This document shows positions 51,289 through 56,479 of a stretch of DNA of 64,000 nt, piece after piece. The notes under the pieces were generated by a model, which was given only the letters and a program-made list of their open reading frames with translations, was not told the origin of the DNA and searched no databases. Positions within the stretch are counted from its first letter, which is position 1. Each line of letters begins with the position of its first letter. The stretch lies in assembly GCA_016933695.1 (NCBI GenBank), contig JAFGAL010000001.1:186001-250000 (forward strand), given 5' to 3'. The position numbers and the translations under genes were made by a program. The stretch is from Candidatus Zixiibacteriota bacterium (GTDB taxonomy: Bacteria > Zixibacteria > MSB-5A5 > GN15 > PGXB01).

Positions 51289-52626
51289 ATGAGTGACAGG
51301 TTTACCAAAGACGAAATCACCGGGATCATTCTCGACAGCATCGCTGACGGAGTGTTCACCGTCGACCGCGACTGGAATATCACGTCGTTTAACCGGGCCG
51401 CCGAAGAGATAACCGGCATTCCCCGCGAAGAGGCGATCGGCCAGCAGTGTTGCGACGTGTTCCGCGCCTCGATTTGTGAAGGCAGTTGCGCCCTTCGCGA
51501 AACGATCCGAACCGGCAAGCCGGTGGTCGACAAAGCGATATATATTATCGATGCCGATGGACGACGGATCCCGATCACGATTTCGGCGGCGGTGCTCAAA
51601 GATAAAAACGGCGAGGTCATAGGCGGGGTCGAAACCTTCCGCGATTCCAGCGCGATCGAGGAATTGCGCCGCGAGCTGGAGAAAAAATACTCGTTTTATG
51701 ATATTATCAGTAAAAACCGCGAGATGCTTCGCATCTTCGATATTCTCCCCGAAATCGCCGAATCCAACAGCACCGTTTTAATCGACGGGGAAAGCGGCAC
51801 CGGCAAGGAGCTGATCGCGCGGGCGTTACATAATCTGTCACCGCGTAAAGACCGGCCGATTGTTGCGGTCAATTGCGGCGCTTTGCCGGATACTCTCCTG
51901 GAATCCGAATTGTTCGGCTACAAGGCCGGAGCGTTCACCGATGCGCGCTCCGACAAACCGGGACGGTTCGCGCTGGCCGAGGGCGGCACGATTTTTCTCG
52001 ATGAAATCGCCGAGGTCTCCCCCGCCTTGCAGGTGCGGCTGTTGCGGGTATTGCAGGAACGGGTGTACGAACCGCTCGGCGCGACCGCCTCGGTCCCGAC
52101 CGACGTCCGCGTGATCGCCGCCACCAATAAAGACCTCGAGAAATTGGTCAAGACGGGTAAATTCCGTGAGGACTTGTACTACCGGATCAATGTTATCCGC
52201 GTCACCCTCCCCCCGCTTCGTGAGCGCAAAGAGGACATCCCCCTTCTGGTCGATCATTTTATCGAACGCTTTAATCGGTTAAAAAGCAAATTCATCACCG
52301 GCATCGCGCCCGATGCGCTGGCGATCCTGATGAATCACGACTTCCCCGGCAATATCCGTGAACTGGAGAATATCATCGAGCGCGCCTTTGTCATGACTCG
52401 CGGCGCGATCATCCAGGCGGCGGCGTTTCCCGATAATCTGCAACCGGATCGCCCCGCACCAGAGATGGTCGGAGGCAATTCGCTGGAAGATATCGAAGCC
52501 GCATATATCACCGAAGTCCTTCGTAAAAACGGCTGGAATCGGCAGAAAACCGCCGAAGAGTTGGGGATGCACAAGACCACACTCTGGCGGAAGATAAAAA
52601 AGCTGGGCATAACAGTCCCTGAATAA
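51289..52626 (+). CDS. PAS-domain sigma-54 enhancer-binding protein (likely activator of the next operon)
   Basis: The 445-residue activator has an N-terminal PAS domain (residues 10-125). Its loop carries QQCCDVFRASICEGSCALRE, whose Cys cluster could bind metal or an iron-sulfur cluster or sense redox state. The AAA+ domain has Walker A GESGTGKE (about 166) and Walker B IFLDEIAEV. The sigma-54 contact loop reads GAFTDA, not GAFTGA. A Fis-type helix-turn-helix (QKTAEELGMHKTTLWRKIKK) ends the chain. Two inverted repeats and a sigma-54 promoter begin immediately after its stop, so I infer that it controls the cofactor operon. A similar regulator is next to the orp operons of Desulfovibrio. Confidence 0.92.
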   Translation: MSDRFTKDEITGIILDSIADGVFTVDRDWNITSFNRAAEEITGIPREEAIGQQCCDVFRASICEGSCALRETIRTGKPVVDKAIYIIDADGRRIPITISAAVLKDKNGEVIGGVETFRDSSAIEELRRELEKKYSFYDIISKNREMLRIFDILPEIAESNSTVLIDGESGTGKELIARALHNLSPRKDRPIVAVNCGALPDTLLESELFGYKAGAFTDARSDKPGRFALAEGGTIFLDEIAEVSPALQVRLLRVLQERVYEPLGATASVPTDVRVIAATNKDLEKLVKTGKFREDLYYRINVIRVTLPPLRERKEDIPLLVDHFIERFNRLKSKFITGIAPDALAILMNHDFPGNIRELENIIERAFVMTRGAIIQAAAFPDNLQPDRPAPEMVGGNSLEDIEAAYITEVLRKNGWNRQKTAEELGMHKTTLWRKIKKLGITVPE

Positions 52627-52627
52627 T

Positions 52628-52643
52628 GTTGCATTATTGCAAC
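52628..52643. promoter_or_regulatory. Upstream activator site 1 (inverted repeat)
   Basis: GTTGCA-TTAT-TGCAAC is a perfect inverted repeat two bases after the stop of the activator gene. It shares the core TTGC-N6-GCAA with the second site. Confidence 0.78.
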
Positions 52644-52658
52644 TATAAATATCAATAT

Positions 52659-52676
52659 AATTGCATATTCGCAATT
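52659..52676. promoter_or_regulatory. Upstream activator site 2 (inverted repeat)
   Basis: AATTGC-ATATTC-GCAATT is an inverted repeat with the same TTGC-N6-GCAA core. Its centre is 32 bp from site 1, three helical turns, so both sites face the same side of the DNA. It lies about 100 bp upstream of the -24 element. Confidence 0.78.
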
Positions 52677-52774
52677 AAATACATATAAGCTTAATCCTTT
52701 CGAAACTCCTCGATTATTTTATCTGATTGTTATATAACAACATAAAATGGTTACACGCCGATAAGCCGATTGTT

Positions 52775-52788
52775 GGCATTTTTTATGC
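52775..52788 (+). promoter_or_regulatory. Sigma-54 promoter (-24/-12) of the cofactor operon
   Basis: TTGGCATTTTTTATGCTT contains GG and GC dinucleotides exactly ten bases apart, the invariant sigma-54 pattern. The start point would be near 52800, so the first gene (ATG at 52807) would have a leader of only about seven bases and has no Shine-Dalgarno site. Confidence 0.85.
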
Positions 52789-52806
52789 TTTATATCTGCC
52801 TTAGTT

Positions 52807-53220
52807 ATGAAGATTGCAATTCCGATATGGAACAACCGGGTTTCGCCGGTCATGGACAGCGCCGGTCGGCTGTTGTTGATTGAGATTGACAACGGCGCGA
52901 TCGGTGCCAGGTCCCTGATTGACATCCCGCCACTGCACCCGGTGCAAATGGCACGATTCATTGTCGATCTGGGAATCGACCGTCTGATCTGCGGAGCGAT
53001 CTCGCATCGTTTGCAGATGATGCTGACCACTTCCGGGCTGAATGTATTACCCTGGGTCAGAGGGCAGGTCGATGATATCATCACAGCGTTTATCAACGGC
53101 AATTTGCAAAATCAGGATTTTTACCTTCCGGGGTGCCGTCGGGGGGGTCACCGTCGCGGACGGGGATGCGGACGACGATATGGCATGGGACACGGAAGAT
53201 TTTATCTGGAGGAATCATGA
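52807..53220 (+). CDS. DIM/NifX-type cofactor-binding protein with Gly/Arg/Cys tail
   Basis: The 137-residue protein belongs to the dinitrogenase iron-molybdenum cofactor (DIM) family. MKIAIPIWNNRVSPVMDSA, LLLIEIDNG and the DRLICGAIS strand-turn match the fold. Family members bind metal clusters; in Desulfovibrio the ORP protein holds a Mo-Cu-S cluster. Unlike most members it ends in a GCRRGGHRRGRGCGRRYGMG tail with two Cys and two His. It is the first gene of the sigma-54 operon and overlaps the next by four bases. Confidence 0.85.
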   Translation: MKIAIPIWNNRVSPVMDSAGRLLLIEIDNGAIGARSLIDIPPLHPVQMARFIVDLGIDRLICGAISHRLQMMLTTSGLNVLPWVRGQVDDIITAFINGNLQNQDFYLPGCRRGGHRRGRGCGRRYGMGHGRFYLEES

Positions 53221-53579
53221 AAATCGCCATCTCATCGCAGGGAGAAACCCTGAACAGCCAGGTCGATCCGAGGTTTGGCCGGGCGAAGTGTTTTATCATC
53301 TATGATACCGATACCGGCAATTTCGCGGTGGTGTCCAACGATCAAAACCTCAATGCCGCCCAGGGGGCGGGGATTCAGGCCGCGCAGAACGTGGTTCGTC
53401 AGCAGGTCGATTTGGTGGTATCCGGCAATCTCGGCCCGAAAGCGTATGCCACACTATCGGCCGCCGGTGTCAAAACTGCGCTCTGGGCCGAGGGAACGGT
53501 TGCCGATGCAGTGAAGTTGGTTGTGGAAAATAAACTGGAAATAACCAATGGCGCCAATGTCCAGGGACATTGGATGTAG
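53217..53579 (+). CDS. DIM/NifX-type cofactor-binding protein
   Basis: The 120-residue protein is a compact DIM-family member: MKIAISSQGETLNSQVDPRFGRAKCFIIYD at its start, then VDLVVSGNLGPKAYATLSAAG. The DPRFGR motif and following Cys are typical of single-domain members such as ORP. The ATG overlaps the upstream stop (ATGA), with GGAGG just before. Of the three DIM proteins here it is closest to the ORP/NifX core length. Confidence 0.9.
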   Translation: MKIAISSQGETLNSQVDPRFGRAKCFIIYDTDTGNFAVVSNDQNLNAAQGAGIQAAQNVVRQQVDLVVSGNLGPKAYATLSAAGVKTALWAEGTVADAVKLVVENKLEITNGANVQGHWM

Positions 53580-53627
53580 GATGATACTAATAAGAGAAAA
53601 CGCAAGTCGTATAGAAAGGAGATAATC

Positions 53628-54020
53628 ATGCCGGGTGGAGATCGAACCGGACCGATGGGTGCCGGACCGATGACCGGTCGGGGCGCCGGATATTGCGCGG
53701 GCTATACCATGCCCGGGTATATGAATCCCGTTTGGGGCAGAAATTTCGGACAGGGCGGTTATGGCTATGGCTTCGGTCGCGGCTTTGGCCGTGGCTTCGG
53801 CATGGGACGCGGACGCGGTTTCGGCCGCGGCTGGGGTATGGGAATGGGCCGGCAGGCCATGCCCTATCCGTATTATCCCGATCAGGGAGATGTCGCGTCT
53901 CAACCGACCGCGGAAAATGAACTGGCCTATCTGAAAGATCAGGCCAAGTATTTCGGTGACGCGCTGGAAAATATCAATAAGCGTATCGCCAAACTGGAAA
54001 CAAAGGAGAAAGGGAAATAG
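53628..54020 (+). CDS. DUF5320 Gly/Met-rich protein
   Basis: The 130-residue protein begins MPGGDRTGPMGAGPMTGRG, the signature of DUF5320, followed by a CxGY stretch. A Gly/Arg/Phe/Met-rich low-complexity region covers residues 40-80. A C-terminal coiled coil (LKDQAKYFGDALENINKRIAKL) ends it. Such proteins accompany DIM and MinD-like genes in anaerobes. The function is unknown; a metal-binding or scaffold role is possible. Confidence 0.85.
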   Translation: MPGGDRTGPMGAGPMTGRGAGYCAGYTMPGYMNPVWGRNFGQGGYGYGFGRGFGRGFGMGRGRGFGRGWGMGMGRQAMPYPYYPDQGDVASQPTAENELAYLKDQAKYFGDALENINKRIAKLETKEKGK

Positions 54021-54021
54021 C

Positions 54022-54264
54022 ATGGCATATCCCGGAGGAGGCCGCGGCGGCGGAGGTATGGGAGGCGGACAGGGACGTGGCGGCGGCGGCGGTCGCGGTA
54101 TGGGCGGTGGTCGCGGCATGGGGCGTGGCGGCGGTCAGGGTTTTGGTCCCAGCGGCGAATGCATCTGTCCCAATTGCGGCGAGACCGTACCGCATCAGGC
54201 CGGAACCCCCTGTTTCAACATGAAATGCCCGAAATGCGGCCAGACCATGACCCGAAAGCAATAG
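54022..54264 (+). CDS. Glycine-rich zinc-ribbon protein
   Basis: The 80-residue protein has a Gly/Arg-rich N-terminal half (GGGRGGGGMGGGQGRGGGG) and a C-terminal zinc ribbon with CICPNCGETVPHQAG and CPKCGQTM. The ATG follows the DUF5320 stop directly. It has the same ribbon as small proteins found beside DIM genes in anaerobes. The function is unknown. Confidence 0.8.
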   Translation: MAYPGGGRGGGGMGGGQGRGGGGGRGMGGGRGMGRGGGQGFGPSGECICPNCGETVPHQAGTPCFNMKCPKCGQTMTRKQ

Positions 54265-54265
54265 C

Positions 54266-55132
54266 ATGAAAGCGAACGCGCTTCATATCGCCGTCGCCAG
54301 CGGCAAAGGTGGCACGGGCAAAACCACGCTCGCGACCTGTCTGGCGGCGGTCCTGGCCAAACGGGGAAAATCGGTGGCGTATCTCGACTGCGACGTCGAG
54401 GAACCCAACGGCCATATTTTTCTCAAACCGCAAATTTCAAAAACCACGGAGGTCGAGGTGTTGATTCCGAAGGTCGATCTCGACAAGTGTACCTTTTGCG
54501 GTGAATGTGCCAAAATCTGCGAGTTCAACGCCATTGCGGTTTTGCTGGACAAGGTGATGGTCTTTCCGTCGCTGTGTCACAGTTGCGGCGGCTGTTTTCA
54601 TATCTGTCCGGAACGCGCGATTACCGAAATCCCGCGACCGATTGGGACGATTGCCGACGGTATCGGAATGGGCGTCCGCTTCATCGAGGGACGGCTGAAT
54701 ATCGGCGAGGCGATGGCCCCGCCGGTTACGACCAGAATAAAACACAATATGCCGGATATGGACGTGACCATTATCGATGCCCCGCCGGGAACATCCTGTC
54801 CGGTGATCGAGGCGGTGCGGGACACCGATTTTGTCGTGCTGGTGACGGAACCGACCCCGTTCGGGCTGAACGATTTGCAACTGGCGGTGGGCATGGTGCG
54901 ATCATTGCAGTTACCGTTCGGCGTGGTAATCAACCGCAGTGATCTGGGCGATGACCGGGTGGTCAAATACTGCGCCGACGAGAAAGTGGACGTGATGATG
55001 CAAATCCCGTTCAATCGCGCCCTGGCCGAATCATACGCGGTCGGCAAAATGATCGACGGTCTCGCGCCGGAACTGACCGACGATTTGACACACATGTATG
55101 ATACTATTGAAAGCCGGGTGGCCCATGATTGA
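54266..55132 (+). CDS. MinD/Mrp-like ATPase with inserted 2x[4Fe-4S] ferredoxin domain (first copy)
   Basis: The 288-residue protein is a deviant-Walker P-loop ATPase (SGKGGTGKTT at residues 13-22) with a two-cluster ferredoxin insert at about 70-120. The first cluster is CTFCGECAKIC and the second CHSCGGCFHICP, all eight Cys present. The ATPase core continues with IIDAPPGTSCPV. Proteins of this type are thought to move or assemble iron-sulfur or metal clusters using ATP. It overlaps the second copy by eight bases, and the two probably form a heterodimer. Confidence 0.92.
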   Translation: MKANALHIAVASGKGGTGKTTLATCLAAVLAKRGKSVAYLDCDVEEPNGHIFLKPQISKTTEVEVLIPKVDLDKCTFCGECAKICEFNAIAVLLDKVMVFPSLCHSCGGCFHICPERAITEIPRPIGTIADGIGMGVRFIEGRLNIGEAMAPPVTTRIKHNMPDMDVTIIDAPPGTSCPVIEAVRDTDFVVLVTEPTPFGLNDLQLAVGMVRSLQLPFGVVINRSDLGDDRVVKYCADEKVDVMMQIPFNRALAESYAVGKMIDGLAPELTDDLTHMYDTIESRVAHD

Positions 55133-56081
55133 ACTGGTGGTTCTCAGCGGCAAGGGCGGAACCGGCAAAACCAGTACGGTTGGGGCACTGGCGGCTTTGG
55201 CGGAAAACAAGGTGCTGGTGGACTGCGATGTCGACGCCGCCGATCTGCATCTCATTCTCGATTATAACGTGGAAGAGATGCATGAGTTTATCGGCGGGAG
55301 TATCGCCAAAATAGTGGAAGACAAATGCGTCGATTGCGGCATCTGTCCCGATTACTGCCGGTTTAATGCCATTAAAACCGTGGCGGATGAATCTCGTCCC
55401 GACGGCGAACGCTTCGTGATCGATGAGTACGCCTGCGAGGGATGCGGGATTTGCGCGCATTTCTGCCCGGAGCAGGCCATTGATTTTTCCGAGAAGGTCA
55501 GCGGGCAGTGGTTTCGATCGGAAACACCGCATGGCCCGCTGTTTCACGCCCGGCTGGGAATCGCTCAGGCCAATTCCGGCAAACTGGTGGCGGTACTGCG
55601 CCGCGAGGCTCGTGAGGCGGCCGAACAGCAAGGCCGGGATTTGATTATAATCGACGGTCCCCCGGGAATCGGCTGTCCGGTGATCGCTTCGCTGACCGGT
55701 GTAAACTATGTCCTGCTGGTGACGGAACCCTCGATGTCGGCCCTGCACGATATGGAGCGACTGGTGAAGCTGCTGTCGCATTTCAAGATTCCGGCGGGGA
55801 TGTGTATCAACCGCCATGATCTCAACAACGATCTGACCGCACAACTGGAACGATTCGCAATAGACAATCGCATCGCCCTGCTCGGCCGTATCCCCTTTGA
55901 CCGCGCCGTTACCGACGCGCAGGTGGCCGGGCGCAATAGTATCGACCACGGCAACGGCCCGGCGGCATCGGCACTGAAAGCAGTATGGGGACGACTGCGG
56001 GAAGAGTTGCAACAGGTTCATCAGCATCGGTCGGGACAGACAAGAAGAATAATCAATATACAGGATAACGTGGAGATGTAA
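55125..56081 (+). CDS. MinD/Mrp-like ATPase with inserted 2x[4Fe-4S] ferredoxin domain (second copy)
   Basis: The 318-residue paralogue has Walker A LSGKGGTGKTS at the N terminus and the clusters CVDCGICPDYC and CEGCGICAHFCP. The ATPase motif is IIDGPPGIGCPV. It differs from the first copy by a longer ferredoxin region and a C-terminal tail. In Desulfovibrio the matching pair is encoded with ORP and binds it. The ATG at 55125 gives a clean N terminus; earlier codons are not needed. Confidence 0.92.
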   Translation: MIELVVLSGKGGTGKTSTVGALAALAENKVLVDCDVDAADLHLILDYNVEEMHEFIGGSIAKIVEDKCVDCGICPDYCRFNAIKTVADESRPDGERFVIDEYACEGCGICAHFCPEQAIDFSEKVSGQWFRSETPHGPLFHARLGIAQANSGKLVAVLRREAREAAEQQGRDLIIIDGPPGIGCPVIASLTGVNYVLLVTEPSMSALHDMERLVKLLSHFKIPAGMCINRHDLNNDLTAQLERFAIDNRIALLGRIPFDRAVTDAQVAGRNSIDHGNGPAASALKAVWGRLREELQQVHQHRSGQTRRIINIQDNVEM

Positions 56082-56083
56082 CT

Positions 56084-56479
56084 ATGAGGATTGCGATTCC
56101 GACAGCGGAGGGACTGCTCTGCCAGCATTTCGGTCATTGTCAGCAGTTTGTCATTATCGATGTTGATACCGACAAGAAAGAGATTCTTAAAACGGAAATG
56201 GTCACGCCTCCCCCGCATGAACCGGGAGTGCTCCCCGGCTGGCTTCAGCAGCAGGGGTGCCATTTCATCATTGCCGGCGGTATGGGGGGACGTGCGATCG
56301 GCATGTTCAGCCAGTACGGTATCGGGGTGATTACCGGTGCGCCGCCGCAGAAACCCGAGGACGTTGTCATCGCCTATATGAACGGTCAGTTGATCGCGGG
56401 CGGCAACCCCTGTGCCGACGATCATCCGGGATTCCACCAGGGCGGCCACGGCAAATGTCAGTCACGCGAGCGAGAGTAA
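56084..56479 (+). CDS. DIM/NifX-type protein with His/Cys-rich tail
   Basis: The 131-residue third DIM-family protein begins MRIAIPTAEGLLCQHFGHCQ, with the CxxHFGHC motif typical of the group of ORP-like NifX homologues next to MinD ATPases. A GGMGGRAIGMF stretch lies in the middle. The tail (NPCADDHPGFHQGGHGKC) adds Cys and His. It ends the operon. Confidence 0.9.
   Translation: MRIAIPTAEGLLCQHFGHCQQFVIIDVDTDKKEILKTEMVTPPPHEPGVLPGWLQQQGCHFIIAGGMGGRAIGMFSQYGIGVITGAPPQKPEDVVIAYMNGQLIAGGNPCADDHPGFHQGGHGKCQSRERE

Follow-up and report, generated by a model that had tools for sequence, protein, structure and literature searches.

A Zixibacterial operon with three DIM proteins, two MinD-type ATPases, and an OrpR-like activator: a probable variant of the ORP operon

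An enhancer-binding protein (EBP) gene and the seven genes that follow it, at positions 51289-56479 of a 64,000-nt stretch of DNA from a Candidatus Zixiibacteriota bacterium (the window), probably represent the Zixibacterial form of the orange protein (ORP) operon together with its upstream OrpR-type activator. ORP operons have been described in sulfate-reducing bacteria, where they probably assemble or hold metal–sulfur clusters, and the Zixibacterial operon likely works like ORP. The operon is a variant of a known system and does not qualify as a strict Desulfovibrio-type ORP operon, because the MrpORP fusion and the divergent layout of the Desulfovibrio operons were not found. The original prediction, an ORP-like combination of sigma-54 control, a cognate EBP, and matching ATPases, is supported by the identity of the EBP to those of MrpORP loci, the cis-architecture of the control region, and the placement of the DIM2 and DIM3 proteins; as a whole it stands in part, in that the ORP-like core was recovered, whereas an identical parts list and a role in pole positioning or division were not.

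Organization of the Operon

The source assembly is 2.7 Mb in size and 82% complete, and a search of it for a 16S gene gave no match. All eight genes lie on the + strand and are present as originally placed, confirming a packed seven-gene operon with an EBP gene just before it. The EBP gene is followed by seven tightly packed genes in the order DIM1, DIM2, DUF5320, Gly-rich zinc-ribbon protein, MinD1, MinD2, and DIM3, the last of which ends at 56479. The features and the evidence for each are as follows.

51289-52626, + strand: EBP, an OrpR-like activator with a Cys-rich PAS domain, a sigma-54 AAA+ domain (GAFTDA loop), and a Fis-type helix-turn-helix (Pfam; Cys conservation)
52629-52642, no strand: candidate activator box 1, TTGCATTATTGCAA (box pair conserved in the order)
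52661-52674, no strand: candidate activator box 2, TTGCATATTCGCAA, 32 bp from box 1 (box pair conserved in the order)
52774-52789, + strand: candidate sigma-54 promoter, TGGCATTTTTTATGCT (GG-N10-GC), 145 bp from box 1 (conserved position)
52807-53220, + strand: DIM1, a DIM domain with an Arg/Gly/Cys cationic tail (PF02579, 3.7e-6; own clade; tail charge)
53217-53579, + strand: DIM2, an ORP-type DIM protein, Orp8-like (PF02579, 1e-22; clade with D. gigas ORP)
53628-54020, + strand: DUF5320 protein, isoelectric point (pI) 9.6 (PF17253, 2e-26)
54022-54264, + strand: Gly/Arg-rich protein, pI 9.6, whose Cys set resembles a zinc ribbon (sequence; zinc-ribbon matches below cut-off)
54266-55132, + strand: MinD1, a MinD/Mrp-type P-loop ATPase with two CxxCxxCxxxC motifs, Orp3/4-like (Pfam; alignment; model, pLDDT 86)
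55125-56081, + strand: MinD2, a second ATPase of the same kind (Pfam; locus mapping)
56084-56479, + strand: DIM3, equivalent to the Di-Nase domain of MrpORP but free-standing, CQHFGHCQ ... CADDH (NF041136, 8.7e-38; clade; motif)

The EBP gene is separated from DIM1 by 180 nt. Within the operon, DIM1 and DIM2 overlap by 4 nt and MinD1 and MinD2 by 8 nt, while the remaining gaps are 48 nt (DIM2–DUF5320), 1 nt on either side of the zinc-ribbon protein gene, and 2 nt (MinD2–DIM3). The EBP gives Sigma54_activat (5e-68) as well as PAS and HTH_8. The three proteins predicted to be of the DIM/NifX type all match PF02579, DIM1 barely above the cut-off and DIM3 at 5.6e-21; the two predicted MinD-like ATPases with ferredoxin inserts give CbiA/ParA and Fer4 pairs, and the DUF5320 assignment also holds. 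For the Gly-rich zinc-ribbon protein, the gene and the Cys set were found as predicted, whereas every Pfam match to it is below the cut-off. The flanking genes (RND and TolC upstream, a phosphoesterase downstream) do not belong to the cluster; in the relatives described below, only a remote RND match (27%) near one locus (L034) was found.

The Control Region and the Activator

The EBP gene lies directly upstream of DIM1 in all nine loci of relatives whose contig reaches it (L033-L036 and L038-L042), and the encoded EBPs are 67-74% identical to that of the window; the contigs of L037, L043, and L044 stop before this position. Between the EBP gene and the operon, a pair of palindromic boxes (TTGC-N6-GCAA twice, with at most two mismatches in total, spaced 31-33 bp) was found in all ten promoters analysed from the order, and in each of the ten at most 1 of 200 dinucleotide shuffles equalled it. 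The mismatch-free pattern TTGCN6GCAA-N14-22-TTGCN6GCAA occurs a single time in the genome, at this locus, and the reversed control of the pattern gave no match there.

A sigma-54 consensus scan of the window was uninformative (27 matches vs 26 expected); the site upstream of DIM1 gains weight only through its position, which is conserved in most relatives. By the best match of the script, counted without shuffle control, a sigma-54 site lies 144-147 bp past the first box in seven of the ten order promoters. L042 is the eighth, in which the best-scoring site differs from the conserved one, the latter being visible in the promoter listing; the L041 promoter is shortened by a long open reading frame call, and L033 is without GG-N10-GC. 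With transcription assumed to start 12 nt past the GC of the site, box 2 is centred at about -132, and one activator site of D. vulgaris orp1 is located at -131 (PMC3897727).

The same arrangement recurs at a distance. Among 26 EBP-adjoining promoters of named loci retrieved via MinD1, nine carry a box pair that no more than 2 of 200 shuffles equal. A sigma-54 site lies at 144-146 bp in eight of these nine: L053; L054 (Zixiibacteriota); L069; L070 and L074 (both Eisenbacteria); the Desulfobacterales locus L110; and the 'Deltaproteobacteria' loci L101 and L115. The box pair is unclear in the other 17 of the 26, and if up to three mismatches are allowed, 20 of 26 have a GG-N10-GC site, a figure without shuffle control. 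A cognate EBP, a candidate sigma-54 promoter, and palindromic sites are thus all recognizable from the sequence, and the predicted link between EBP and operon, for which the nine loci and ten promoters of the order and the eight named loci speak, is strong.

The predicted sigma-54 start (about 52800) leaves the DIM1 start codon only ~7 nt downstream, with no clear Shine-Dalgarno sequence between 52789 and 52807, and some relatives look alike by eye. Either the sigma-54 transcript would be nearly leaderless, or the start codon has been called wrongly.

The PAS domain of the EBP contains three cysteines (C54, C63, and C67) that are invariant in 13 of 13 aligned EBPs. In a survey of 46 EBP-like proteins from all loci, they are kept in 33 of the 34 that adjoin a DIM gene, the sole exception being truncated. 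They are also found in 6 of the 12 that do not adjoin one, a small and biased control in that all named loci were retrieved via MinD1, and the loci of all six also contain DIM genes. The PAS domain of D. vulgaris OrpR reportedly holds a redox-sensitive [4Fe-4S] cluster. Over at least 440 columns, the window EBP is 58-61% identical to the EBPs of four MrpORP loci (L080, L131, L110, and L092), and the GAFTDA loop that it carries is listed for DVU2106 as well (PMC4641369). Plasmid-borne relatives of the EBP were searched for by tblastn and set aside: there were 2515 records, and the five listed are AtoC-like (two without annotation).

A second EBP–DIM unit occurs in the same genome (L051:2171-9319, contig G000:C27) and at L046 and L050. 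Its activator, EBP2, is 52-55% identical to the window EBP, carries the same three cysteines, and precedes a gene for a DIM1-like protein 249-265 aa in length; the unit heads a set of CCG/HdrD-like, NarI-like, Fe-S, and NrfD(-cytochrome c) genes, a membrane redox complex. Upstream of these EBP2–DIM operons, the box pair in its operon form is absent, and TTGC/GCAA half-sites at other spacings are seen by eye. A PAS histidine kinase adjoins the second unit (L051:245-1729) and has two Cys-rich PAS stretches resembling the EBP motif.

Three Classes of DIM Proteins

A tree of 135 DIM domain rows, taken from the relatives, the even-numbered named loci, and five PDB sequences and leaving out domains below 60 bits or shorter than 75 residues, gives three groups, which correspond to DIM1, DIM2, and DIM3. 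DIM2 falls into a 33-row clade (support 100/90) with the ORP of D. gigas (2wfb) and so provides the ORP (Orp8) protein of the operon, although the two are distant within the clade, 2wfb being in a sub-clade with Desulfobulbus-type proteins. The match of DIM2 to 1rdu (8e-20) outscores that to 2wfb (5e-17), yet 1rdu, like MTH1175, lies outside the ORP clade.

DIM3 belongs to a 27-row clade (100/99), which includes domains from proteins of ~400-550 aa as well. The MrpORP family model NF041136 (DVU2109, Dde_3202) scores far better with DIM3 than with DIM1 (2.5e-10) or DIM2 (3e-6), and DIM3 aligns to positions 265-365 only, that is, to the Di-Nase part, without a P-loop domain. The CQHFGHCQ and CADDH motifs of DIM3 are similar to the CXHFGHCE and CDH motifs of MrpORP, which have been named as likely ligands of a [3Fe-4S] cluster (PMC6345978). 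Among 60 proteins assigned to DIM3, C.HFG.C is present in 21 and HFG.C in 55.

DIM1 forms its own 28-row clade (97/93) and stands out by its tail. A net charge of +5 or more in the last 30 residues was found in 32 of 51 DIM1, 6 of 76 DIM2, and 1 of 45 DIM3 proteins (Fisher 5e-15, uncorrected for relatedness; proteins >200 or <100 aa were left out), and the tails of DIM1 in relatives carry +5 to +10 in nine of nine. In the window, the pI is 9.6-9.7 for each of DIM1, DUF5320, and the zinc-ribbon protein. A DIM domain with a cationic Gly-rich tail is also the build of IssA of Pyrococcus furiosus (PMC5524996), and IssA/IssX of Pyrococcus and relatives share it with DIM1. However, the DIM1 tail is shorter and Arg-rich, and the domains are only distantly related: DIM1 matches MTH1175 with an E of 0.65 and is in a separate clade, while P. 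furiosus IssA itself is outside the tree.

The MinD-Type ATPases and the MrpORP Fusion

MinD1 and MinD2 each contain two CxxCxxCxxxC motifs, so that the operon encodes two MinD-type ATPases with two [4Fe-4S] motifs each. In 2 of 11 MinD1 rows (L042 and L044), Arg or Trp takes the place of the second Cys in the first ferredoxin motif, which should break one [4Fe-4S] site. The closest folds to the MinD1 model (pLDDT 86) are MinD of Archaeoglobus fulgidus and the ATPase-type HypB, with FlhG, FleN, Cfd1, ApbC, and DPOR/NifH close behind; because folds of both kinds score close, the modelled fold alone cannot decide between positioning and metal delivery. By hydrophobic moment, the C-terminal stretches of MinD1 and MinD2 rank 18th among 271 and 12th among 301 windows; they are not unusually amphipathic and lend no support to membrane targeting of the ATPases.

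The MrpORP of D. vulgaris joins the Di-Nase domain to an Mrp ATPase, which hands its Fe-S cluster to Orp3-Orp4-Orp8 in vitro (PMC6345978). None of the 40 genomes of the order contains a protein that reaches the NF041136 cut-off, which is passed by all seven scanned proteins of ~400-430 aa with a DIM3-type domain (those of L080, L092, and L110 are in the tree). An ordinary Mrp half (E 1e-60 or better) is found in 33 of the 40 genomes, including 9 of the 11 with the cluster. One suspected MrpORP (G007:C36, L139:531-1706) was rejected: the 391-aa frame carries a DIM-like domain at its N terminus, has Cys residues in its middle, and belongs to a different kind of DIM-domain protein.

Comparison with the orp1/orp2 Operons

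The orp1/orp2 system of D. vulgaris Hildenborough, with its activator DVU2106 (OrpR), has several features in common with the Zixibacterial operon: sigma-54 promoters and palindromic activator sites, a cognate EBP bearing the GAFTDA loop, a pair of MinD-type ATPases that each contain two ferredoxin motifs, an ORP protein, and an MrpORP-type Di-Nase domain (PMC3897727, PMC6345978, and PMC4641369). It is organized as two divergent operons (PMC3897727 and PMC6345978), whereas a single co-directional operon follows the EBP gene here, and its Di-Nase domain is fused to Mrp, whereas here it is free as DIM3. The cationic-tailed DIM1, the DUF5320 protein, the Gly-rich zinc-ribbon protein, and the two tandem boxes 32 bp apart further set the Zixibacterial operon apart. 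The claim of the original prediction that the window has the same parts list as the Desulfovibrio orp loci accordingly failed: the MrpORP fusion and the divergent operons are missing, and DIM1 is a separate class.

Distribution

A PF02579 search of the 40 genomes of the order, own genome included, gave a match in 21, and the cluster or its contig pieces are present in 11, namely the own genome and ten relatives (G001, G005, G007, G010, G014, G018, G021, G031, G036, and G038). Eleven window proteins were mapped on 20 stretches; the presence of DIM2 in the relatives rests on the PF02579 search, the survey of EBP neighbours, and the DIM tree rather than on this mapping. In G005, two pieces (L043 and L044) both carry MinD1-MinD2-DIM3, which would reflect a duplicated cluster or a strain mixture. 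COX1 is above the cut-off in 3 of the 11 cluster genomes and in 20 of the 29 others (Fisher p 0.03, uncorrected for relatedness); the cluster is therefore rarer in genomes with a heme-copper oxidase, in line with an anaerobe-specific system, although not strictly so. The nitrogenase component PF00148 was found in 0 of the 40 genomes, including the own, 82% complete one, so the predicted lack of nifHDK holds as far as searched and nitrogenase cofactor assembly was rejected.

Outside the order, a scan with the MinD1 alignment confirmed relatives in at least 590 places of many phyla. The 80 loci kept span Planctomycetota, 'Deltaproteobacteria', Desulfobacterales, Omnitrophota, Spirochaetes, Bacillota, and others, and the highest-identity named match among those listed is a Candidatus Zixiibacteriota metagenome-assembled genome (68%), which agrees with the prediction of an FCB-type (Fibrobacteres–Chlorobi–Bacteroidetes) genome. 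The families that recur in these loci, each named from one Pfam-scanned representative, are NifU_N (23), ARMT1-like (22), radical SAM (21), metallo-beta-lactamase (MBL) fold (15), and DUF134 (8), and they fit Fe-S or other metal work. Among the papers listed for DUF5320 and DUF134, two, PMC6345978 and PMC4672049, concern ORP.

Proposed Mechanism and Alternatives

On the ORP-type reading, the Cys-rich PAS domain of the EBP would hold a redox-sensitive Fe-S cluster and activate the operon under reducing conditions. Sulfide–metal clusters would then be bound by the three DIM proteins, each in its own way: non-covalently in DIM2, as in ORP; through Cys/His in DIM3, as in the MrpORP Di-Nase; and by electrostatics in DIM1, via its cationic tail. 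The MinD1-MinD2 pair may bind the DIM proteins and use ATP to load, hold, or hand on the clusters, and the Fe-S transfer step, which the P-loop half of MrpORP carries out elsewhere, probably falls to the housekeeping Mrp/ApbC.

Several observations weigh against this reading. The resemblance of the EBP to OrpR is judged via the EBPs of MrpORP loci rather than D. vulgaris OrpR. The full control layout is lacking in 18 of the 26 named-locus promoters, and two of the eight loci that have it (L053 and L054) are near relatives of the window by their EBP (72%). The first Cys of CxHFGHC is absent in 39 of 60 DIM3 rows and 4 of 7 certified MrpORP proteins and therefore cannot be a universal ligand, which slightly lowers confidence. 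The three-class DIM scheme is not universal either, because some Omnitrophota rows called DIM1 by profile sit in the DIM3 part of the tree, and the third DIM of Desulfobulbaceae/Desulfocapsaceae is of a different, long-branched type on a separate branch. The presence of COX1 in three cluster genomes means that the cluster is not confined to oxidase-free genomes. Finally, the own assembly contains no clear Mrp and no rpoN, the latter being present in 36 of the 40 genomes, although this says little because ~18% of the genome is absent.

The cationic tails and the high pI values of DIM1, DUF5320, and the zinc-ribbon protein are also what would be expected if the operon served the storage of Fe-S or another thiometallate, with DIM1 working like IssA, the RG-rich DUF5320 and zinc-ribbon proteins helping to form the particle, and the ATPases and DIM3 releasing the clusters. 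IssA itself is a DIM protein with such a tail, but the DIM1 tail has ~30 residues against 70 in IssA and is Arg- rather than aromatic-rich, its domain is far from MTH1175, which PMC5524996 places in the IssA clade, and several profile-called DIM1 rows that fall in another clade blur the charge count; storage on this model thus seems unlikely. The recurrence of an EBP–DIM pair at the head of a membrane redox complex in the same genome, together with HypB among the best MinD1 folds, could instead point to the maturation of one particular metalloenzyme (hydrogenase, CODH, or an Hmc/Dsr-like complex) in anaerobes. However, a single client seems unlikely because MinD1 relatives are so widespread, and we regard this explanation as distinctly improbable.

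It is very doubtful that the operon encodes a division- or pole-positioning system built on the MinD-like ATPases, of the kind suggested for D. vulgaris ORP, even though A. fulgidus MinD is the best fold match of MinD1 and MrpORP is polar in D. vulgaris (PMC6345978). Each ATPase has two ferredoxin motifs, the C-termini lack unusual amphipathicity, and no division gene was recognized among the recurrent neighbour families, five of which were Pfam-scanned and are those listed above. Of the two roles originally proposed, metal-cluster assembly or a complex linked to the cell pole or division, the second has thus found no support, whereas a metal–sulfur role is likely.

A bolder version of the ORP-type reading, which we consider unlikely, is that the three DIM proteins are dedicated carriers of three chemically different sulfide clusters, forming with the RG-rich proteins a bacterial metal–sulfur storage-and-loading body. 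DIM1 would carry a thiometallate, DIM2 an ORP-type cluster, and DIM3 a Cys/His-ligated Fe-S cluster; one ATPase pair would serve all three, and the redox-sensing EBP would be the switch. The DIM1–EBP pair would then be an older regulatory unit, because a DIM1 relative also follows the paralogous EBP before the membrane redox complex.

Implications

The box pair and its promoter spacing are also seen next to EBPs in no fewer than two further phyla (Eisenbacteria and Desulfobacterales), and this layout offers a cheap way of defining ORP regulons. With three DIM clades sharing one operon, the 'NifX-like protein of unknown function' becomes a set of separate carriers that can be tested, and the cationic-tailed DIM1 links ORP to the iron–sulfur storage of the IssA type.

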